DNA of 60,698 nt from Armatimonadota bacterium (GTDB lineage: Bacteria; Sysuimicrobiota; Sysuimicrobiia; Sysuimicrobiales; Humicultoraceae): assembly GCA_031459715.1 (NCBI GenBank), contig JAVKIA010000015.1, positions 1 through 60,698 on the forward strand, read 5' to 3'. Both the position numbers and the translations under genes were made by a program. The notes under the pieces are model-generated. The model searched no databases, was not told where the DNA came from, and saw nothing but the letters and a program-made list of their open reading frames with translations. Positions 2,761 through 13,991 of the stretch are shown here, piece after piece; positions within the stretch are counted from its first letter, which is position 1; every line of letters begins with the position of its first letter.

Positions 2761-3138
<378 letters not shown>

Positions 3139-3385
3139 CCTCTCCTCCTTCCACACTTCATGCGGCGGCCTGCCGCCGCACACATAGAAGCCCTCCGCCA
3201 CGGGGGAAGAGGGCGATCACCGCCGCGCGATGTCCGGCGCGGTGGCGCCGGATTATCGCAAGCCTTCTCCGCCGCTATAGAGCCTGCGCCATACGAGGCA
3301 CCGGAGATGGTGCCCTGCGGCGCATCCCAGGTACTCTCCGGGGACCTAAGTAGAGGCTACGCGCTGGAGAGCCCCGATTGTCGCG

Positions 3386-3670
3386 CTACGCCCCCGGCGG
3401 CGTCGGCGGCTCCAGCACCGCGGCCGCAGCCGCGCCCACGGCAATCCCGCAGGCCCGGCCCAGCTCCCGCATGGAGTCCACCTCCACGAGGGGCACTCCC
3501 CGCTCCTGAGCGGCGCGGATAACCGGCTCGGTCACCTTCCGGTCGGCATCTCGCGCCACCAGGACCAGCCGCGCCCGCCCCCCGCGAACCGCCTTGGCCG
3601 TCTGGCTGGCGCCAACCGCCCGCGCCTCGGCGGCCCGGATCTGCTCCAGGGGCGGAAGCGTGGCGGCCAT
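3386..3670 (-). CDS. L7Ae/L30e-family ribosomal protein (YbxF/RplGB-like)
   Basis: Small 94-residue protein of the L7Ae/L30e/S12e/Gadd45 fold, whose bacterial members bind kink-turn RNA. A GGRARLVLVARDAD-like strand-turn and a conserved VPLVEVDSMRELGRACG stretch match the YbxF/RplGB type. In Bacillota the same gene lies between rpoC and rpsL. Here it keeps its place before rpsL, but a block of opposite-strand pilus genes separates it from rpoC. The C-terminus is alanine- and proline-rich. Family assignment is from pattern and position; the precise RNA target is not known from sequence. Confidence 0.88.
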   Translation of the reverse strand: MAATLPPLEQIRAAEARAVGASQTAKAVRGGRARLVLVARDADRKVTEPVIRAAQERGVPLVEVDSMRELGRACGIAVGAAAAAVLEPPTPPGA

Positions 3671-3917
3671 CGCTCAACCTTACGAAGGATAGCACCCGCT
3701 TCCGGGGATGTCAAAGACCCCTGCCTGCTAGTTGAAGAGCCGTTCGGGGAAGCCCTGGGGGGCAGCCGGATACGGGGGAGGTCTAAATCCCGGGGCACTT
3801 GGCTATAACCTTGTGAGAACCCGGGGGGCAGCTTGGGGCAGGAGCTCCCGCTTACGTCCGGGCATCGGGGAGGGCATCCACGCCGATGCTGCTCCCCCTT
3901 GGCGCCAGGGAGACACA
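3671..3917. other. Divergent intergenic region between the L7Ae-like gene and the pilus operon
   Basis: This 247-base gap must hold the promoters for both directions. On the plus strand a TATAAC box (3804-3809) resembles a -10 element but has no convincing -35. An inverted repeat with arms GCATCGG and CCGATGC (3862-3868 and 3883-3889) lies 30-55 bases before the ATPase start, and CTCCCC at 3892-3897 could pair alternatively with GGGGAG. I looked for c-di-GMP riboswitch consensus blocks and did not find them. The regulatory role is unproven. Confidence 0.35.
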
Positions 3918-5816
3918 ATGGCGAAGACCGCACGCACGGCGGGTTCCCCCCTGCAGCGGCGGCTCCTCGCACTGCTGGACGACCACGCCGGCGACCGGGA
4001 CCAGGTGACGGCGGCGAGCCTGGCCGCGAGCCTGGCCGTGTCGGTAGCGGAGGTCGAGGCCGAGCTGGAGAGCCTGGTCCTGCTGGGCAACCTCATCCGC
4101 ACCAGCGGGGAGGATGGCCAGGTGCGCTACAGCCCGGCCCCGCGGCGGAGGCTCCTGGGGCACATGCTGGTGGACGCCGGCCTGATCAGCGAAGCCCAGC
4201 TCCAGGAGGCGCTGGCCGAGCAGCAGCAGACCGGGGAGCGGCTGGGGCGCATCCTGGTCGACCGGGGGTACGTGAGCAAGCAGGCCCTGGGGCAGATGCT
4301 GGAGGCGCAGCGGGGCGTCCCCTACCTCAACCTGTCCACGTACCCCATCGACGAGAAGCTGGTGCGGGAGCTGCCGGAGTGGGTGATCCTGCAGCACAAG
4401 GTCGTGCCTGTGGCCCGCGTGCGGCAGGAGGTCCACCTGGCCATGCTGGACCCCACGGATGTCTTGGCCATCGACACGGTGGCGCGGATGCTCGGGGGGC
4501 GGGTCCGCCCTTTCCTCACCACGGAGCGCGACTTCGACTGGGCGGTAACCAGGTACCTGGACGTGCGGCGGCGGGTCGGGGAGAGCCTTCTGGCGGTGCC
4601 CGAGGAGCCCGACAGCCCGCCCGGCGCGGCGACCGTGGTGACCGAGGCGGCCGACGCTCCGCCCGTGGTGCGGGTGCTTAACTCCATCCTGGGAGACGCG
4701 GTGCGCATTGGAGCCACGGACATCCACATCGAGCCGGATGCCGATCAGGCTCGGGTTAGGATGCGGGTGGACGGGCTCCTGCACGACAAGGCGACCCTGC
4801 CCCCGGGGGTGGCCGGCGCGGTGATCTCCCGTCTGAAGGTCCTTGCCGGCGTGGACATCGCAGAGCGTCTGCGGCCCCAGGACGGCCGCATCCTCCTGGA
4901 GATCGAGGGGCGGCAGTACGACTTGCGCCTGGCTACGGTGGGCACCGCCTACGGGGAGCGCGCCGCCGTCCGGTTGCTGAACACTCAACAGGTCCTGCTG
5001 GGCCTGGAGCGGCTCGGCCTCTTCCCCCAGCAGCAGGCTGTCCTGGAGCGTCTGCTGGCCCGACCCCACGGGATGCTCCTGGTCACCGGACCCACCGGCA
5101 GCGGCAAGACCACCACCCTCTATGCCGCCCTGCGCCACATCAACGCCCGCACCCGCAACATCATGACCATTGAGGATCCGGTGGAGTACCGCCTGCCGGG
5201 GATTACCCAGATCCCGGTGCGGGAGAAGGCGGGGGTGACCTTCGGCCTGGGACTGCGGGCCATCCTGCGGCAGGACCCCGACGTGGTCATGGTGGGGGAG
5301 ATCCGCGATGCTGAAACCGCCACCATCGCCGTCCAGGCCGCCCTCACCGGCCACCTGGTACTGTCCACGCTCCACACCAGCCACGCCGCCGGTGCCCTGG
5401 TGCGCCTGCTGGACATGGGCATGGAGCCCTACCTGCTGACCTCTTCGGTCCTGGCGGTGGTGGGTCAACGGCTCCTCCGGGTTCTCTGCACTGCCTGCCG
5501 ACGGCGGGGCAGGGCCAGCGCCGAGGAGGCGGAGATGCTGCGGGGCCAGGGGGAGCACCCGCGCCTCTTCCGGCCCGCAGGTTGTCCCGAGTGCGGAGAC
5601 CTGGGCTACAAGGGACGCACTGGCATCTTCGAGATCATGGCCATGACCGAGGACCTCCGCGAACTGGTCCTGCAGCGCCGGCCGGCCAGCGCACTGCAGG
5701 CGACTGCTGTGGCCGCGGGCATGCAGACGCTGCAGGAGTCGGCGCGGCGCAAGGTCCTGGAAGGGATTACCAGCACCGAGGAGTACCGCCGCCTGCTCCT
5801 GGCGGAGGAGGGATGA
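3918..5816 (+). CDS. gspE: Type IV pilus/type II secretion assembly ATPase with N-terminal winged helix and MshEN domain
   Basis: Cytoplasmic hexameric ATPase of the GspE/PilB family (632 residues) that drives pseudopilus extension. Start ATG chosen because AGGGAGA precedes it; the frame is open for a further 62 codons upstream without family similarity. Order of parts: a winged-helix-like region (about 10-70); an MshEN region with two tandem copies of the LGxxLxxxGxxxxxxLxxxLxxQ pattern (about 80-102 and 108-131), the signature of the c-di-GMP-binding MshEN family; Walker A GPTGSGKT at 391-398; a conserved Asp/His-box region; and a zinc tetracysteine (C524, C527, C556, C559). First gene of a seven-gene operon, sharing ATGA with the next gene. 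The winged helix is predicted from pattern only. Confidence 0.92.
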   Translation: MAKTARTAGSPLQRRLLALLDDHAGDRDQVTAASLAASLAVSVAEVEAELESLVLLGNLIRTSGEDGQVRYSPAPRRRLLGHMLVDAGLISEAQLQEALAEQQQTGERLGRILVDRGYVSKQALGQMLEAQRGVPYLNLSTYPIDEKLVRELPEWVILQHKVVPVARVRQEVHLAMLDPTDVLAIDTVARMLGGRVRPFLTTERDFDWAVTRYLDVRRRVGESLLAVPEEPDSPPGAATVVTEAADAPPVVRVLNSILGDAVRIGATDIHIEPDADQARVRMRVDGLLHDKATLPPGVAGAVISRLKVLAGVDIAERLRPQDGRILLEIEGRQYDLRLATVGTAYGERAAVRLLNTQQVLLGLERLGLFPQQQAVLERLLARPHGMLLVTGPTGSGKTTTLYAALRHINARTRNIMTIEDPVEYRLPGITQIPVREKAGVTFGLGLRAILRQDPDVVMVGEIRDAETATIAVQAALTGHLVLSTLHTSHAAGALVRLLDMGMEPYLLTSSVLAVVGQRLLRVLCTACRRRGRASAEEAEMLRGQGEHPRLFRPAGCPECGDLGYKGRTGIFEIMAMTEDLRELVLQRRPASALQATAVAAGMQTLQESARRKVLEGITSTEEYRRLLLAEEG

Positions 5817-7015
5817 TGCCCACCTACGAGTACCTCAGCCGCGACGCGCGGGGCCTGCTGGTCAGGGGGCAGGTGGAGGCAGAGGACGCCGCCCGCGCCC
5901 GGGCGCGGTTGCGGGAGCAGGGGCTCTACGTCACCTCGCTGCGCATCGCGGGCGCTGGCCTGTGGCGCGGCCCTCGTCGTCCCCAGCCGGCGGAGGTCGC
6001 CCTGCTGACGCACCACCTGGCTATGCTGCTGGCAGCCGGCGTGCCTCTCTCTCCCGCCCTGGATACCCTGGCGGAGCAGACGGAGGATCCCGGGACGCGC
6101 AGCATCCTGTGGGACCTGGCGCAGGACATCAAGGAAGGAAAGAGCCTTTCTGCGGCCCTGGGGGGCTATCCCGACCTCTTTCCCGCCCTCTATGTGGGAA
6201 TCGTGCGCAACGGCGAGTTGAGCGGCCGGCTGGACGAGGCCCTGGGCCGGCTGGCCGCCTACCTGGAGCGGGATCAGGAGTTCCGCCGCCGGGTGCGGGA
6301 GGCGCTGGTCTACCCGGGACTGGTCCTGGCCCTGGCGGGGATCGTCGTGGTCGTCTTCCTCACCTTCATCATCCCCGCTTTCGACCGGGTCTACCGCAAC
6401 AGCGGAGCGCGCCTCCCCCTGGCGACCCGGGCCCTGGTGGCCAGCAGCACCCTCTTCCGCCACAACCTCCCTCTGGCCGCCCTGGCCGGAGCAGCGATCC
6501 TGCTGCCGCCTGCGCGGCGGGCGCTGTGGGAGACCATCGCCGGGCCGGCCCGGCGCCTGGTCCTGCGGCTGCCCCAGGCGGCCTCGCTGGCCCGGACCGT
6601 CGCCCTCTCCCGCTTCGTCCACGCCCTGGGGGCGATGCTGCAAAGCGGTGTCCCCGTGCTGACGGCGCTGGAGGTGGCCGGGGAAGCGGTGGGGACAGCG
6701 GACTTTCGCACCGCCATACGCGAGCTGGCAGCTCGTGTCAGCGGCGGGTGCCGGCTGGGCGACTCCCTGCGCCAGACCGGAATGTTCCCGCCAATGGTCG
6801 TACGAATGGTGGCGCTGGGGGAGGAGTCCGGCCGGCTGGACGAGATGCTGCAGCGCGCCGGCGCAGTCTTGGACCGGGAATTCGAGCTATGCATGCGCCG
6901 CCTCCTCACGTTCCTGGAGCCGGCGCTGACCCTGCTGCTGGGCGGGGTCATCGGGGCAATTCTCCTGGCGCTGTACCTGCCCATCTTCGGCCTGTCCCGG
7001 GCGTTGGTGCGCTGA
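5813..7015 (+). CDS. gspF: Pilus/type II secretion inner-membrane platform protein
   Basis: Polytopic platform protein of the GspF/PilC family (400 residues) that couples the ATPase to pseudopilin polymerisation. It begins MMPTYEYLSRDARG, typical of the family, and has two T2SSF repeats (about 65-190 and 270-395), each followed by hydrophobic segments. The first helices include a VVVVFLTFIIPAF stretch and the last one ends in LLALYLPIFGL. The ATG at 5813 overlaps the stop of the ATPase gene. The next ATG at 5816 is equally plausible because GGAGGAGGG lies just before both. Translational coupling to the ATPase is likely. Confidence 0.93.
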   Translation: MMPTYEYLSRDARGLLVRGQVEAEDAARARARLREQGLYVTSLRIAGAGLWRGPRRPQPAEVALLTHHLAMLLAAGVPLSPALDTLAEQTEDPGTRSILWDLAQDIKEGKSLSAALGGYPDLFPALYVGIVRNGELSGRLDEALGRLAAYLERDQEFRRRVREALVYPGLVLALAGIVVVVFLTFIIPAFDRVYRNSGARLPLATRALVASSTLFRHNLPLAALAGAAILLPPARRALWETIAGPARRLVLRLPQAASLARTVALSRFVHALGAMLQSGVPVLTALEVAGEAVGTADFRTAIRELAARVSGGCRLGDSLRQTGMFPPMVVRMVALGEESGRLDEMLQRAGAVLDREFELCMRRLLTFLEPALTLLLGGVIGAILLALYLPIFGLSRALVR

Positions 7016-7031
7016 AGGACCGGAGGAGGTC

Positions 7032-7067
7032 ATGAGCAGCCGATGGGGAGGCGACACCAACCGGTAA
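7032..7067 (+). CDS. Possible 11-codon leader ORF between gspF and the first pseudopilin
   Basis: An ATG sits two bases after GGAGGAGG, the strongest ribosome binding site in this operon, and opens an 11-codon frame (MSSRWGGDTNR) ending in TAA. The stop overlaps another purine-rich AAGGAGGG. It begins 16 bases after the gspF stop. It could be a leader peptide, a decoy start or chance. There is no homology evidence, so this is a speculative call. Confidence 0.25.
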   Translation: MSSRWGGDTNR

Positions 7068-7167
7068 GGAGGGTGGTTCCCTCATTGCACGGTCTGGCAG
7101 AGTCTCTCAGCCAGCAACCATGCCTGCCTTTGTAACGCACCAACAGTACAGCAAGGAGGGATGGAGG

Positions 7168-7569
7168 ATGCGGCAATGGTCTGGTGAAGGCGGCTTCACA
7201 TTCGTCGAGGTGCTGGCGGTGGTGCTGCTGCTGGGGATCCTGGTCCTGGTGGCGCTGCCCAACTACTTCGGGGCGGAGAACGACGCGCGGCGACAGGTGG
7301 ACCGGGCCAACGTCCGGGCCATCAACGCGGCGCTGGCGCTCTACCGGTTCCGCAACAACGGGAGCTGCCCGGTGGCGGCCGAGCCCGGGACGACGTTTAC
7401 CGAGTTCCTGGCCGACACCACCTACTTCCCGGACGGCGCGCCCACCGACCCGTGGACCGGCAGCAGTGCAGCGTACGGCACCACGTATGACGCCACCCTG
7501 TGCCGGGTGCAATTGAGCGCGGGCGGCGTCAACCACGACGCCAGCAGCTCCAGCGGCCACGGCCCGTAG
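7168..7569 (+). CDS. GspG-like major pseudopilin
   Basis: Pilin-like subunit of 133 residues. A short basic leader ends in GG, followed by the mature start FTFVEVLAVVLLLG with Glu at +5. Prepilin peptidase would therefore cleave after the second glycine (residue 9). A hydrophobic polymerisation helix follows. The periplasmic part contains a YFPDGAPTDPWTG segment resembling the PxDPWG loop of GspG pseudopilins, and two cysteines (in SCPV and TLCRV) that could form a disulfide. AAGGAGGG precedes the ATG at normal spacing; upstream in-frame codons would destroy the leader. It is the only pseudopilin of the operon with a substantial gap before it, which fits higher expression. Confidence 0.88.
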   Translation: MRQWSGEGGFTFVEVLAVVLLLGILVLVALPNYFGAENDARRQVDRANVRAINAALALYRFRNNGSCPVAAEPGTTFTEFLADTTYFPDGAPTDPWTGSSAAYGTTYDATLCRVQLSAGGVNHDASSSSGHGP

Positions 7570-7617
7570 CCTCGAGGCCGGGCGACCGCGGTCTCTTCAC
7601 AGGGGCGGCCTCCGGGT

Positions 7618-8064
7618 GTGAAGGTACCGGTGCGCCCTGGCGGCTTCTCCTTCCTGGAGCTGCTGGTGGTTGTGGGCCTTCTGGCCATCTTGCTGGTCGT
7701 GGCGCTGCCGCAGCTGTTCGCGCCGGAGGAGCTCGGCGTGGAGACGACCGCTCGGCAGGTGGCCGCCGACCTAGTCCTGGCCCGCCGCCTGGCCATCGCC
7801 CGCCGGATGCCGTACGTGGTCTCCTTCGCACCCCCCGGAGGTCCGTACACCGCATACACGGTCGCGCCCCAGGGCGGCGCGCCGGAGCCAGACTTCCCCA
7901 AGAGCCTGCCGGAGGGGATCGCGGTCACCGGCAGCGACCTGGTGACCTTCCAGCCCTCGGGCGCAGCGTCTGCGGCCGCCCGCCTGAGGTTCGCCGCTGG
8001 CGGGGCGACTGCACAGGTCGACGTGGCGGCGGGCACGGGAAGGGTCCGGGTCAGCGCACCGTGA
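7618..8064 (+). CDS. GspH/FimT-type minor pseudopilin
   Basis: 148-residue pseudopilin. The N-terminus MKVPVRPGG|FSFLELLVVVGLL shows a basic leader, a Gly-Gly cleavage site, Glu at +5 and a polymerisation helix. It is followed by the TARQVAADLVLARRLAIAR pattern typical of the GspH/FimT family, where the helix continues into ETTARQV-type repeats. The start is a GTG with only a weak ribosome binding site, so the exact start is less certain than the family. Its stop codon overlaps the GTG proposed for the next gene. Likely a minor tip-complex subunit. Confidence 0.85.
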   Translation: MKVPVRPGGFSFLELLVVVGLLAILLVVALPQLFAPEELGVETTARQVAADLVLARRLAIARRMPYVVSFAPPGGPYTAYTVAPQGGAPEPDFPKSLPEGIAVTGSDLVTFQPSGAASAAARLRFAAGGATAQVDVAAGTGRVRVSAP

Positions 8065-8528
8065 GGCCGCGGGGCGGAGTGGCGAAAACGCAGGCGGTCA
8101 CCGCAAGGCCCCAAGGCGTCGTTATGGCGCAGGCCGGCATCACCCTGGTCGAGCTCCTGGTGGCGGCGCTGCTGGTGGGCCTGGCCCTCGTGCCGCTAGT
8201 GCACCTCTACCCGGGGCTTCTGGAGGCCAACCGGGAAGGGGAGACGGCAATGCGCCTGGGCGTGGCCGCTTCCCGCAAGCTGGAGGAGCTCGTCGCCGCC
8301 ATGCGCAGCGATATCGACGCCGTCTCCTCAGGGGCAGAGGGCTGTGGCGACCTGCCCGCGTGCCGCCTGGAGTGGACGGTCCAGTCCGAGCAGTCCAGCC
8401 CCACCCCGGGGGTGGGCGCGCTGAAGAGCGTGGGTGTGCGGGCGTGTGCAGACGCCGACGGCAGCCTGACCTGCGACGCTGGCGAGACGCAGGTGCGCTA
8501 TGACACCAGGGTCACCTCGCGGCCCTAG
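8061..8528 (+). CDS. PilV/GspI-like minor pseudopilin
   Basis: Pseudopilin with mature start ITLVELLVAALLVGLALVP (Glu at +5) and four cysteines in the periplasmic part (CGDLPAC, RACADAD, LTCDAG). I prefer the GTG that overlaps the preceding stop as GTGA: the same junction occurs at the last gene of this operon, and it gives a 26-residue leader with four basic residues. Starting at the ATG at 8124 would leave an uncharged five-residue leader. 155 residues with the GTG, 134 with the ATG. Probably a minor subunit of the pseudopilus tip. Confidence 0.75.
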   Translation: MRPRGGVAKTQAVTARPQGVVMAQAGITLVELLVAALLVGLALVPLVHLYPGLLEANREGETAMRLGVAASRKLEELVAAMRSDIDAVSSGAEGCGDLPACRLEWTVQSEQSSPTPGVGALKSVGVRACADADGSLTCDAGETQVRYDTRVTSRP

Positions 8529-10032
8529 GCTCCGCTGCGGTGAGGCCGGCCTCTCCCTGGTCGAGGTCCTCCTTGCCGTGCTCCTCCTCTCGCTTGTGGT
8601 CGGCGGGCTGCTGCCGCTGCTCGGCGGCGCCGAGGGATCGTACCAGGAGACGCGGCGCCGCCAGGAGCTGGTGCAGAATGCCCGCGTGGCGCTGGACCTG
8701 CTGCTGCGCCAGGTGCGGGCGGCCGAGTCCTTCCGGGTGATCTCCCCCGGGCTGATCCGCCTGACCCTCTTCTGGGGAGACGGCAGCGGGGCCATGCCTA
8801 CAGTGGAGTACGTGCTGGACGGGACTGGCGGCGAGCTGTCATACCGCTGGAGCAACGACTGGGACTACCGGCGGCAGATCACGGTGACCGCGGTGCAGAC
8901 CACGCCGGCAGGGTACGCCGTCCCTGTGGTTGTCGACCACGCCGCTCTGGTCGCCGCCGGCAAGAGCCTTCCCGGGGGCGAAGACGTGCGGATCAAGTAC
9001 TGGAACGGGACGGCGATGGCGGAGCTGGACCGGGTGCTGGATCCCCTCTCTACCTGGAACACCTCTGCGGTGAAGCTGTGGTTCCCCCTGCGGGCCCCTA
9101 TCGTCTCCGGGCAAGCCGACGCCGGCTACTACCTCTACTACGGCAACCCTGCGGCCCCGCCACCCCCGGCCCGCGGGGACAACGTCTTCCTGGACTATGA
9201 GGACGGCAGCACCCTCGGCGGCTGGATACGCAGGGATCCCTGCGCCCCCGCGCCCCCTGCCGGGTATGCACCCTCTGCCGACGGCTTCGTCTTCCAGACA
9301 ACTAGCGGCAACAACTGTTACCGGCGGCTGAGCAAGAACGTCCCCCACGAGGACGTGGAGATCTTCTGGGGATCCCGCAGCGGCGCGCCGGGGGATCGGG
9401 CAGCCAACGACCGGCATGTGGTGGGTGTGGGGGCCAGGCTCAGCGCCTCCGGCGCCGGCTACCTGGTAGTCCCGGGCGAGGATCTCAACCGTCGCCTGCG
9501 CATCCGGGAGGTCACCGCCTGGAACGTCGACGGAAGCATCCTGGCCCAGACCGCCCGGAATGCGACCCTCTACCGTGTGATCCCGGGGAGAGACTACTAC
9601 GCGCGCTTCTCCCTGGTGGGTTCGACCCTGCAGGCCAAGTTCTGGCCGGCCAGCACCGCCGAGCCCGCGGGGTGGATGCTCTCCGCTGCGGACGCCACCT
9701 ACGCGGCGGGGGCGTACTATGCCCTGGTGGACGGCCACGACGCCCCCCAGGATCACCGCCACCGCCGGGTGATCGTCCGCCCCCGGGTGCAGCTCGAGCC
9801 CCTCCTCGCCCTGGGCGGTGAGGTTTCAGGGACGCGCCCGGACGCCCTGGAGGCGCTGGCGGGACCGATCCGCTCCATGACGGTGACCTGCTTTGCCCCC
9901 AACGGGGCCCCGCTGGACTGCTCCCAGACCCCGCAGGTGCGCAGCGTGCAGGTTACCCTGGTGGTCATGGATCCCGACGGCCGGGTCCCCGATCTGGCTG
10001 TGAGCGGCCGGGCCTTCCGTCAGGCACCGTGA
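8500..10032 (+). CDS. GspJ/PilW-like pseudopilin with inserted DUF2341 and lectin-like module
   Basis: 510-residue pseudopilin, far longer than the roughly 180-220 usual for GspJ/PilW. Leader MTPGSPRGPRLRCGEAG, then LSLVEVLLAVLLL with Glu at +5. Residues 1-118 form a normal pilin N-terminus (helix, first strands ending near TVEYVLDGTGGELSYRW), and 453-510 look like the C-terminal strands of the same fold (SMTVTCFAPNG, VRSVQVTLVVMD). Between them is an insert: a DUF2341-like region (about 119-225, with WDYRRQITV and YYLYYGNP) and a beta-rich, LamG-like region (about 226-445) ending in RPRVQLEPLLALGGE, resembling the tail that follows DUF2341 in surface proteins. DUF2341 identity is by pattern. 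The gene overlaps the previous one by 29 bases. It may act as an adhesive or ligand-binding tip. Confidence 0.82.
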   Translation: MTPGSPRGPRLRCGEAGLSLVEVLLAVLLLSLVVGGLLPLLGGAEGSYQETRRRQELVQNARVALDLLLRQVRAAESFRVISPGLIRLTLFWGDGSGAMPTVEYVLDGTGGELSYRWSNDWDYRRQITVTAVQTTPAGYAVPVVVDHAALVAAGKSLPGGEDVRIKYWNGTAMAELDRVLDPLSTWNTSAVKLWFPLRAPIVSGQADAGYYLYYGNPAAPPPPARGDNVFLDYEDGSTLGGWIRRDPCAPAPPAGYAPSADGFVFQTTSGNNCYRRLSKNVPHEDVEIFWGSRSGAPGDRAANDRHVVGVGARLSASGAGYLVVPGEDLNRRLRIREVTAWNVDGSILAQTARNATLYRVIPGRDYYARFSLVGSTLQAKFWPASTAEPAGWMLSAADATYAAGAYYALVDGHDAPQDHRHRRVIVRPRVQLEPLLALGGEVSGTRPDALEALAGPIRSMTVTCFAPNGAPLDCSQTPQVRSVQVTLVVMDPDGRVPDLAVSGRAFRQAP

Positions 10033-10553
10033 GGACGCCGACTTCGCGCCACCTCATCACCCGGGAGAGGCCGCTGGGGGAGGAGGGGGTGGCTCTGCCG
10101 CTTGCCCTGCTGGTGCTGCTCGTCCTGTCGATCCTGGCCGTGGCGCTGGCGGAGATGACGGCGGCGGAGGTGGACGTGGGCAGGTGGACGCGCTGGGACC
10201 AGCAGGCCCAATACCTGGCCCAGGCGGCCATAGAGCATCAGGTCTACGCCCTGAAAGCCGACAAGGCTGCCGCCGCCGTGGGGCCAGTCAACTACCCGGC
10301 CACGCCGGGAGCTGAGTACTGGTACAGCACCACCCTGACCTGCCTGCTGCAGTGCGCCGCGGATCGGGAAGTGCGCCGCTGGCGCATCATAGGGACGGGA
10401 GAGATCCGGACACCGGGGGGCGCCGTCCTGCAGCGCCGCGCCGTGCGGGCCGAGGTGGAGATCGCCTACGCCTGGGGATCGGCGGGCCCCACCGCCGGCT
10501 TCATCGTCCCCGCGACCGTGACCTACCTCCGGTGGGAGGAGGTCTACCCCTGA
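10029..10553 (+). CDS. PilX/GspK-like pilus-assembly protein
   Basis: 174 residues. The N-terminus ends in a GEEG|VALPLALLVLLVLSILAVA pattern, which resembles PilX-type N-terminal domains rather than a standard prepilin: the +5 residue after VALP is not Glu, and PilX and GspK helices are known to tolerate this. The rest is a mixed domain with a C-x3-C-type pair (TCLLQC). The GTG start overlaps the previous stop as GTGA. It is the last gene of the operon, and its stop codon directly abuts the stop codon of the convergent rpoC. Which minor-subunit role it has is inferred from gene order. Confidence 0.72.
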   Translation: MRTPTSRHLITRERPLGEEGVALPLALLVLLVLSILAVALAEMTAAEVDVGRWTRWDQQAQYLAQAAIEHQVYALKADKAAAAVGPVNYPATPGAEYWYSTTLTCLLQCAADREVRRWRIIGTGEIRTPGGAVLQRRAVRAEVEIAYAWGSAGPTAGFIVPATVTYLRWEEVYP

Positions 10554-13500
10554 CTACAGCTCGGCCGAGATCCTGATGTTGCGGTAGCGGGACATCCCGG
10601 TGCCCGCCGGGATGAGCTTGCCGATGATCACGTTCTCCTTCAGCCCGATCAGCGGGTCGACCTTCCCCTTGGTCGCCGCGTCGGTGAGGACGCGGGCCGT
10701 CTCCTGAAAGCTGGCGGCGCTGAGGAACGAATCGGTGGCCAGGGAGGCCTTGGTGATCCCCAGCAGGGTCGGCCGGGCCTGCGCCGGCTCCTTACCCTCG
10801 GCGATGGCCCGGGCGTTCTCCTCCTCGAACTCGAACTTGTCCACCAGCTGCCCCGGCAGAAATTCCGTGTCGCCGGCCTCCTCGATCTTCACCCGACGCA
10901 ACATCTGCCGCACGATGATCTCGATGTGCTTGTCGTTAATGTCCACACCCTGGGAGCGGTAGACGGACTGGATCTCCTGCACCAGGTAGGTCTGCAGCGC
11001 CTCCAGGCCCTTGATCCGCAGGATGTCGTGGGGGTTGACCGAGCCCTCGGTGAGCTGGTCGCCCGCCTCCACGCGGTTGCCCTCGGCCACGCGGAGGCGC
11101 ACCCCGTGGGGCACGGCCTGGGTCTGCTCGCCGCCGTCCTTGCCCGTGATGGTGATCCGCCGCGCGCCCTTGGCTTCGCTGATGCTCACCTTGCCGGAGA
11201 TCTCGGCGATGATGGCCTGGCCCTTGGGGCGGCGGGCCTCGAAGAGCTCCTCCACCCGCGGCAGGCCCTGGGTGATGTCGAACCCGGCCACCCCACCGGT
11301 GTGAAAGGTGCGCATGGTCAGCTGGGTCCCCGGTTCCCCGATGGACTGGGCGGCGATGATCCCTACGGCCTCGCCGATCTCCACCAGCTTCCCCGTGGCC
11401 AGGTTACGGCCGTAGCACTTGGCGCAGACGCCATAGCGGCTCTTGCAGGTGAGCACAGAGCGCACCAGCACGCTCTCCACGCCAGACTGTTCCAGCCGGT
11501 CGGCTGTCTCCTCGTCGATCTCCTGGTCTGCCTCCACCAGCACGGCCCGCCCGCGGGGCACCCTGACGTCCTCGGCGGCGATGCGGCCGATGATCCGGTC
11601 GCGCAGAGGCACCACCACCTCATGCCCCTCGGTGATGGCGGTGATACGGACGCCCTCGGTGGTGCGGCAGTCCTCCTCGCGGACGATGACGTCCTGGGCC
11701 ACGTCCACCAGGCGGCGGGTGAGGTAGCCGGACTCGGAGGTGCGGATGGCCGTGTCCGCCAGGCCCTTGCGCTGCCCGTGGGTGGAGATGAAGTACTCCA
11801 GCACGGTGAGCCCCTCGCGGAAGTTGGCCTTGATGGGCAGCTCGATGATCCGCCCGCTGGGGTCGGTCATCAGCCCGCGCATCCCCGCCAGCTGGCGGAT
11901 CTGCTGGATGTTCCCCCGGGCCCCGCTCTGGGCCATCATGTACAGGGGGTTAAAGGGGTCAAAAGCCTCCAGCATGGCATCGGTGATCTCCTCGGTGGCC
12001 TTGGTCCAGACGTCGATGGCCCGCTGGTAGCGCTCCCCGTCGGTGATCAGCCCGCGGCGGTACTGGTTCTCGATGGCGTCGATCTGCCGCTCCGCCTCCC
12101 GCAGGATCCGCTCCTTCTCCTGGGGCACAGCGATGTCGTCGATGGCGATCCCCGAGCCACTGCGGGTGGCGAACCGGAACCCCAGGTCCTTGAGGGCGTC
12201 CAGCAGCTGCACCGTCTTGCTGGAGCCCAGGCGGTTGTAAGCCTCGGAGACCACCGTGGCCAGGACCTTGCGGTCGCAGATCTCGTTGATGAAGCGCAGC
12301 TCCTCGGGAATGGCCTCGTTGAAGATGATCCGGCCCACCGTGGTCTCCACCAGCTCCCCCTCCCGGCCCAGCCGCACCTTCACCCGGGCGTGCAGCTCCA
12401 CGGCCCCGGTCTCGTAGGCCATGAGCACCTCGTTAGGGGTGGAGAAGACCTTGCCCTCCCCCTTGGCCCCCGGCCGCTCCAGCGTCAGGTAGTAGCAGCC
12501 GAAGACGATGTCACGTGTGGGGCTGGTGATGGCCCGGCCGAAGGCCGGCGAGAGGATGTTGTAGGCGGAGAGCATGAGCAGGCGGGCCTCCGCCTGCGCC
12601 GCGGCCGACAGGGGCACGTGCACCGCCATCTGGTCACCGTCGAAGTCGGCGTTGTAGGCGGTGCAGACCAGGGGGTGTACCTGGATGGCTTTCCCCTCAA
12701 TCAGCACCGGCTCAAAGGCCTGGATGCCCAGCCGGTGCAGGGTGGGGGCCCGGTTGAGCAGCACAGGGTGCTCCCGTACCACCTCCTCCAGCACATCCCA
12801 GACCTCCGGGCGGGAGCGCTCCACCATGCGCTTGGCGCTCTTGATGTTCTGCGCCAGCGACTTGTCCACCAGCTTCTTCATGACGAAGGGCTTGAAGAGC
12901 TCCAGGGCCATCTCCTTGGGCAGCCCGCACTGGTGCAGCTTCAACCGCGGTCCGACCACGATCACCGAGCGGCCGGAGTAATCCACGCGCTTGCCCAGAA
13001 GGTTCTGGCGGAAGCGCCCCTGCTTCCCCTTGAGCATGTCGGAGAGCGACTTCAGCGGCCGGTTGTTGGGCCCGGTGACGGGACGGCCGCGGCGCCCGTT
13101 GTCGATCAGCGCGTCCACCGCTTCCTGCAGCATGCGCTTCTCGTTGCGCACGATGATCTCCGGGGCGCCCAGGTCCAGCAGTCGCTTCAGTCGGTTGTTG
13201 CGGTTGATCACCCGGCGGTAGAGGTCGTTCAGGTCACTGGTGGCAAAGCGGCCGCCATCCAGCTGCACCATCGGCCGCAGGTCCGGGGGAATCACCGGAA
13301 TCACATCCAGGATCATCCACGTGGGCCGGTTGCCGCTCTTGCGGAAGGCTTCCACCACCTCCAGGCGCTTGAGGATCTTCATCCGCTTCTGCCCGCCGGC
13401 CTCCCGCAATTCGGCCCGCAGCTGGCGGGAGAGCTTCTCCGGATCGATCTCCGCCAGCAGCTCCCGGATGGCTTCGGCGCCCATGCCCGCCCGGAAGGCG

Positions 13501-13991
13501 GTGCCGTACTTCTCCCGCATCTCCCGGTACTCCGTTTCGCTCAGCAGCTGCTTCTTGGTGAGCGGGGTGGTCCCAGGATCGATGACCACGTAGGAGGCAA
13601 AGTAGACCACCCGCTCCAGGGCCCGCGGCGACATGTCCAGGAGCAGCCCGATGCGGCTGGGCACCCCCTTCAGGTACCAGATGTGGCAGACGGGCGCAGC
13701 CAGGGAGATGTGCCCCATCCGCTCGCGCCGCACCTTGGCCCGGGTCACCTCCACGCCGCAGCGGTCGCAGATGATGCCCTTGAAGCGGATGCGCTTGTAC
13801 TTGCCGCAGTGGCACTCCCAGTCCTTGGTGGGGCCGAAGATGCGTTCACAGAACAGCCCGTCCCGCTCCGGCTTGAGCGTGCGGTAGTTGATGGTCTCCG
13901 GCTTCTTCACCTCGCCGTGCGACCAGAGGCGAATCTGCTCCGGCGAGGCCAGCCCGATCTTCACCGCATCGAAGTTGTTGACGTCTTGCAT
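10554..13991 (-). CDS. rpoC: DNA-directed RNA polymerase subunit beta'
   Basis: 1145 residues, a compact beta' without the large lineage-specific insertions of proteobacteria. The N-terminal zinc ribbon (CHCG and CDRCG within the first 80 residues), the rudder/clamp regions, the catalytic [14 protein letters not shown] with three Mg-binding Asp residues, and the C-terminal cysteine cluster near [13 protein letters not shown] are visible. It begins with ATG overlapping the rpoB stop (TGATG). Its own stop abuts the convergent pilus operon with no intergenic base and no intrinsic terminator between them. Confidence 0.99.

Follow-up and report, generated by a model that had tools for sequence, protein, structure and literature searches.

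We found that the window, by which we mean the whole stretch of 60,698 nucleotides that was analysed (its little-known phylum, CSP1-3, is now named CSP1-3/Sysuimicrobiota, a name that stands in the reference list of PMC11974145), encodes a modular minor pilin, which we interpret, with a probability of about 0.6, as displaying a DUF2341 domain and a probable jelly roll as a tip adhesin that probably binds glycans. The pilin is interrupted by about 330 residues (117-449). Judged from the alignments it is a single pilin split by an insert, and the strongest evidence for this is an insert-free ortholog in the same cassette. The features are listed in Table 1.

Table 1. Features of the modular pilin, its cassette and the insert-free ortholog (window coordinates unless a locus is named)
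Feature	Coordinates	Strand	Remarks
PilB/GspE-type assembly ATPase with MshEN domain	3912..5816	+	start approximate
PilC/GspF-type inner-membrane protein	5813..7015	+	
GspG-like (major) pilin	7168..7569	+	
GspH-like pilin	7618..8064	+	PF12019, E 2.8e-8
GspI/PilV-like pilin	8124..8528	+	
Modular minor pilin, GspJ/PilW position, 510 aa	8500..10032	+	sixth of seven cassette genes
Leader peptide, residues 1-17, predicted cleavage after G17	8500..8550	+	sequence; G17/E22 invariance
First part of the pilin (residues 18-116), with the N-terminal helix and about 3 strands	8551..8847	+	strands from the low-confidence model only
DUF2341 domain, residues 117-227	8848..9180	+	profile evidence; model pLDDT about 75-80
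Probable jelly roll of the concanavalin A/LamG type (residues 228-449)	9181..9846	+	conservation extends to about residue 443; PF06439 in homologs; L065 by transitivity
Second part of the pilin (residues 450-510), with the last strands and the conserved Cys464/Cys474	9847..10029	+	alignment; both Cys also in the insert-free L045 protein
PilX/GspK-like pilin, short (174 aa), without Glu5	10029..10553	+	PF14341, E 3.9e-7; NF037980
Insert-free ortholog, 181 aa, genome G024	L045:7344-7886		cassette pilB-pilC-G-H-V-W-X

Homologs of the protein were sought in 100 genomes, and the insert was used in a further profile search of 386 genomes. The results showed 12 insert-bearing genes, each with an open frame, in families f1, f4 and f7 of the same order, spread over 11 genomes besides that of the window; they are full-length in G001, G002 (two copies), G004, G008, G009, G010, G016, G019, G040 and G042, and split across two contig ends in G033. 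The architecture that the initial annotation had described from one sequence was thus recovered in related genomes. The insertion site is identical in the 12 other copies, and the insert is 305-353 residues long in the complete ones; because 12 other open copies carry it at the same point, chance is excluded. An assembly artefact was also considered and was ruled out by the occurrence of the same architecture in 11 other genomes.

The genome G024 matched the window query in two pieces, residues 12-117 and 450-510, which are separated by only 12 bases within a single open frame. In this pilin YR runs almost directly into PLAGPF (...VEFALLPDGDLTYRVGSSPAQPLAGPFAAVDVRCLDGAGVSVDC...), and the corresponding junctions of the window pilin read ...LSYR-(insert)-ALAGPIRSMTVTCFAPNGAPLDC... 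G17, E22 and the two C-terminal cysteines are shared by the insert-bearing and insert-free forms, as is most of the helix pattern. Since this ortholog stands in the same cassette, residues 18-116 and approximately 450-510 together make up a pilin that exists in nature, from which the 330 inserted residues can be removed as a unit, so that the proposal of one pilin split by an insert stood. The insert boundaries first placed at residues 119-452 were correct to within 2-3 residues and were revised to approximately 117-449. The existence of a relative without the insert also indicates that the insert is dispensable for the cassette. In an unrooted tree of the pilins, G024 paired with G033 of the same genus with a support of 0.99, and because G033 carries the insert, the simplest account is that G024 lost it; as the tree is unrooted, horizontal movement of the cassette may be another.

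The start of the 510-residue protein carries a type IV prepilin signal, EAG/LSLVEVLLAVLLLSLVVGGLLPLL (the slash marks the predicted cleavage point). Gly at -1, Glu at mature position +5 and a hydrophobic helix, with PilB, PilC and other pilins encoded alongside, place the protein in the type IV pilin superfamily. G17 and E22 were invariant in all 13 aligned family members, and the N_methyl motif was detected in 12 of the 13, below or near the Pfam cut-off (E 0.0067 and under the cut-off for the window protein), which upholds the perfect prepilin N-terminus noted at the outset. Searches of the single protein against Pfam and NCBIfam returned this motif and weak matches to pilin N-termini and nothing else. 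The gene precedes the PilX/GspK gene in the order H-I-J-K, which is the GspJ/PilW position. No T2SSJ or PilW model matched the window protein at E values up to 1 or any of its relatives, so the J/W name of the modular pilin denotes gene position alone; a PDB sequence search with the two pilin halves stitched together likewise returned no GspJ and nothing significant. The C-terminal strands had been likened to those of GspJ/PilW; as strands they are conserved in the insert-free ortholog, but the likeness to GspJ/PilW found no model match.

According to the family profile, the first approximately 110 residues of the insert are a DUF2341 domain. Pfam did not match PF10102 (gathering cut-off 23.4 bits) to the window protein, and matches in 3 of the 13 members were weak and under the cut-off (best about 20 bits, E 3.4e-4 to 7e-4). 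The insert profile from the search of 386 genomes matched proteins outside the order, and these overlapped with those of an independent PF10102 search in six genomes (G330, G112, G109, G161, G214 and G318). Profile A4, which represents the first part, aligned over most of its positions 1-119 with proteins that Pfam accepts as DUF2341 (L117, L108, L107, L105, L113 and others), and the DUF2341 copies of G330 were 41-44% identical to the DUF2341 of the window. In a three-sequence AlphaFold model of the insert, this part formed a compact beta fold with a pLDDT of about 67-81. The DUF2341 assignment, initially made by eye, was therefore confirmed by family-profile homology over the whole domain to accepted proteins, a relationship that Pfam misses in the single sequence.

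The second part (residues 228-449) is probably a concanavalin/LamG-type jelly roll, for which the sequence evidence is weaker than for DUF2341. PF06439, a family with a concanavalin A-like fold, matched two members of the family (best E 5.5e-4, below the cut-off). In the protein L065 of G330 the insert profile spanned the DUF2341 domain and 160 further residues in one alignment, and Pfam assigned PF06439 (E 3e-5) and a weak Laminin_G to the aligned region. In addition, the motif Y..R..L.G..L.AK.W......P..W...D is common to the insert, to jelly-roll stretches of other exoproteins and to a PilW-like protein of G334. The LamG-type region proposed initially is probable from the PF06439 match in a homolog and the PF06439 and Laminin_G matches in L065, but the window protein itself had no PF06439 match. 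The jelly-roll part of the three-sequence model had a pLDDT below 60, a Foldseek search of the PDB with the insert model gave no match with E below 0.1, and the model and fold search thus add no support for the jelly roll; a PDB sequence search with this part gave no significant match. Nor did PDB sequence searches with the whole protein, the family or the insert, and no residue could be assigned a role in ligand binding.

The AlphaFold prediction for the window protein together with L031 (two sequences) had a mean pLDDT of 34.7 and was used for rough strand positions only. In this low-confidence model, the insert was preceded by strands at residues 85-91, 101-107 and 113-118 and followed by strands at 457-465 and 482-489. 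As a lead only, the model would place the insert between strands 3 and 4, which is the site of GspK's own inserted domain and differs from that of ComZ.

The order pilB-pilC-G-H-V-W-X was conserved wherever the extent of the contig permitted a view, and the start of the PilX/GspK-like gene overlaps the modular pilin gene in GTGA. The cassette of the window (3912-10553, + strand) sits within the gene cluster fusA-rps7-rps12-rpoC-rpoB, between rps12/L7Ae-like and rpoC and opposite in strand (window 2764-13991). The same placement was observed in L031 and L032 (rpoC side) and in L036 (fusA side), but not in L033, L034, L037 or L045. The number of GspG-like genes also varies: one in the window, three in tandem in L031 (5781-7034), and two each in L033, L034 and L037.

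The module was also found outside this pilin family, in large exoproteins of G330 (4737 aa), G192 (8187 aa) and G243. The G330 frame of 4737 residues, on contig 21 (L065, L134) of an unrelated genome, contains several DUF2341 copies. Searches for relatives of the module returned one viral contig, one phage record and no plasmid. The IMG/VR contig L052 encodes a DUF2341 protein (4830-6017), with a further domain behind, among virus-like structural-type genes, and the archaeal virus BK063666, assigned to Methanofastidiosa, encodes another (L131, 5884-7701); both are possibly receptor-binding parts. Two genes, L066 523-3186 (G174) and L068 517-2556 (G311), combine DUF2341 with a PilX-like N-terminus (PilX_N, weak, E 0.01); they adjoin a guanylate kinase-like gene and lie in no pilus operon. 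In the unrelated genome G334, a PilW-like pilin (L072, 1435-3183) bears an Ig-like Big_1 domain and a C-terminal jelly-roll stretch, and so is a further modular pilin whose lectin-type part is related. The presence of the module in exoproteins, viral proteins and orphan PilX-like proteins suggests that it is portable. What qualifies the window protein as a modular pilin in the sense of PMC8179133 is the insert-free L045 ortholog together with the occurrence of the module outside pilins.

The minor pilins H, I, J and K (or FimU, V, W and X) initiate the filament and remain at its tip. In the mechanism we propose, a GspJ/PilW-type pilin would bear the portable exoprotein module, with DUF2341 first and a concanavalin-type jelly roll second, in the loop between predicted strands 3 and 4. 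The pilin part, cleaved behind G17, would join the GspH-I-J-K-like initiating complex encoded alongside and move out to the filament tip, where the module could bind a ligand outside the cell, with a surface glycan as the likeliest candidate. We infer the tip position, the outward display and the adhesion from the biology of GspIJK/PilVWX and from modular pilins; assembly into a filament and a glycan ligand are presumed as well, and the insert probably serves to let the pilus grip something. It is possible, although we regard it as rather doubtful, that the DUF2341-jelly-roll pair is a general recognition cassette of pilins, exoproteins and viral proteins, which would have been spliced into the J/W pilin near the site of the GspK domain. 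A single subunit would then act as the tip adhesin, and the pilus would be undisturbed by its gain and loss.

An adhesin is not the only role that such an insert could have. It might receive DNA at the tip during natural transformation, the role suggested for Thermus ComZ, itself a pilin with an inserted DNA-binding domain (PMC6561018). A DUF2341 gene of a pilus locus, MMJJ_08210 of Methanococcus maripaludis, is needed for transformation according to a transposon screen, in which it was hit repeatedly among transformation-defective mutants (PMC10133366). The genome of the window also encodes a ComEC-type competence protein, but ComEC is so widespread that it tells little. The net charge of the insert is near zero in all members, with no net positive charge in any half, which lends no support to a DNA receptor, although ComZ likewise lacks positive patches; moreover, the absence of any PDB match means no sequence kinship with the ComZ solenoid, and we consider this role unlikely. 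No more probable is that the cassette builds the pseudopilus of a secretion system, in which the module would find its targets in the periplasm and not outside, be they secreted substrates or cell-wall material. The ATPase scored slightly higher as GspE than as PilB and the membrane protein higher as GspF than as PilC, the major pilin is GspG-like, and in GspK the pilin sheet takes up an extra domain at the third/fourth strand (PMC6561018). However, the cassette of the window contains no GspC/L/M, nor a secretin or PilM/N/O of its own, which it would presumably have to borrow; the two secretins of the genome are on other contigs, one (C8) with PilM and two further PilB-like ATPases and the other (C1) near another ATPase. 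In addition, DUF2341 and the jelly roll otherwise occur in exoproteins and viral proteins.

The module could also be a structural spacer that only shapes or stabilises the tip complex, in the manner of the bulky GspK domain, and has no ligand of its own. The adjoining PilX/GspK-like subunit is short and without such a bulky domain, and conservation is lowest in the jelly-roll part, with a mean pairwise identity of 48.9% as compared to 54-60% in the other regions, both of which would fit a spacer. However, a spacer is not required, since the G024 cassette combines an insert-free pilin with a similarly short PilX, and lectin-type folds are usually ligand-binding; we regard this explanation as very improbable, and the tip adhesin is the reading that we prefer.

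Among domains of unknown function, DUF2341 is a widespread one. Its occurrence in a pilin that is small and tractable, and that has an insert-free ortholog in nature, offers a clean way to probe both the role of DUF2341 with the jelly roll and the means by which a pilin tolerates an insert twice its own size. Modular pilins also gain one lineage and one architecture. By 2021 more than 1,200 modular pilins in 264 architectures had been described (PMC8179133), and those with lectin modules or inserted domains are already known (PMC8179133, PMC9934059, PMC6561018). What appears to be new here is DUF2341 inside the pilin fold; the design is otherwise a version of known modular pilins. In the accessible texts of the literature on DUF2341, supplementary tables aside, we found no report of DUF2341 within a pilin fold, which agrees with the initial view that no example was established, but the known modular pilins and the archaeal link of DUF2341 to the pilus tip (PMC4858521) make the novelty smaller than it had appeared.

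Among known systems, PilC of Streptococcus sanguinis is likewise a minor pilin with a concanavalin-type module for display on the filament in an adhesion context, and its lectin module binds glycans (PMC9934059). In PilC the modules are C-terminal to the pilin and the first is Ig-like, whereas in the window protein the module lies inside the pilin and DUF2341 comes first. ComZ of Thermus thermophilus and GspK demonstrate that the pilin sheet can accommodate an inserted domain and that a subunit built in this way fits nowhere but at a tip (PMC6561018). Like the window protein, ComZ, a proposed tip subunit, has a large beta-rich domain within the pilin fold and adjacent minor pilins, but its domain is a beta-solenoid between the last two strands and a DNA receptor, whereas the window protein has a different module, placed earlier in the sheet according to the low-confidence strands. 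GspK is a minor pseudopilin of the H-I-J-K set with a domain between strands 3 and 4 (PMC6561018, PMC8179133); this domain is all-alpha and belongs to the K subunit, whereas in the window a beta module resides in the subunit at the J/W position and the K/X subunit is short. The archaeal DUF2341 proteins (PMC4858521; MMJJ_08210, PMC10133366) share the tie of DUF2341 to a type IV pilus and are predicted to be tip adhesins (PMC4858521); they are described as separate large proteins of pilus loci, whereas the DUF2341 of the window is an insert within the pilin fold.
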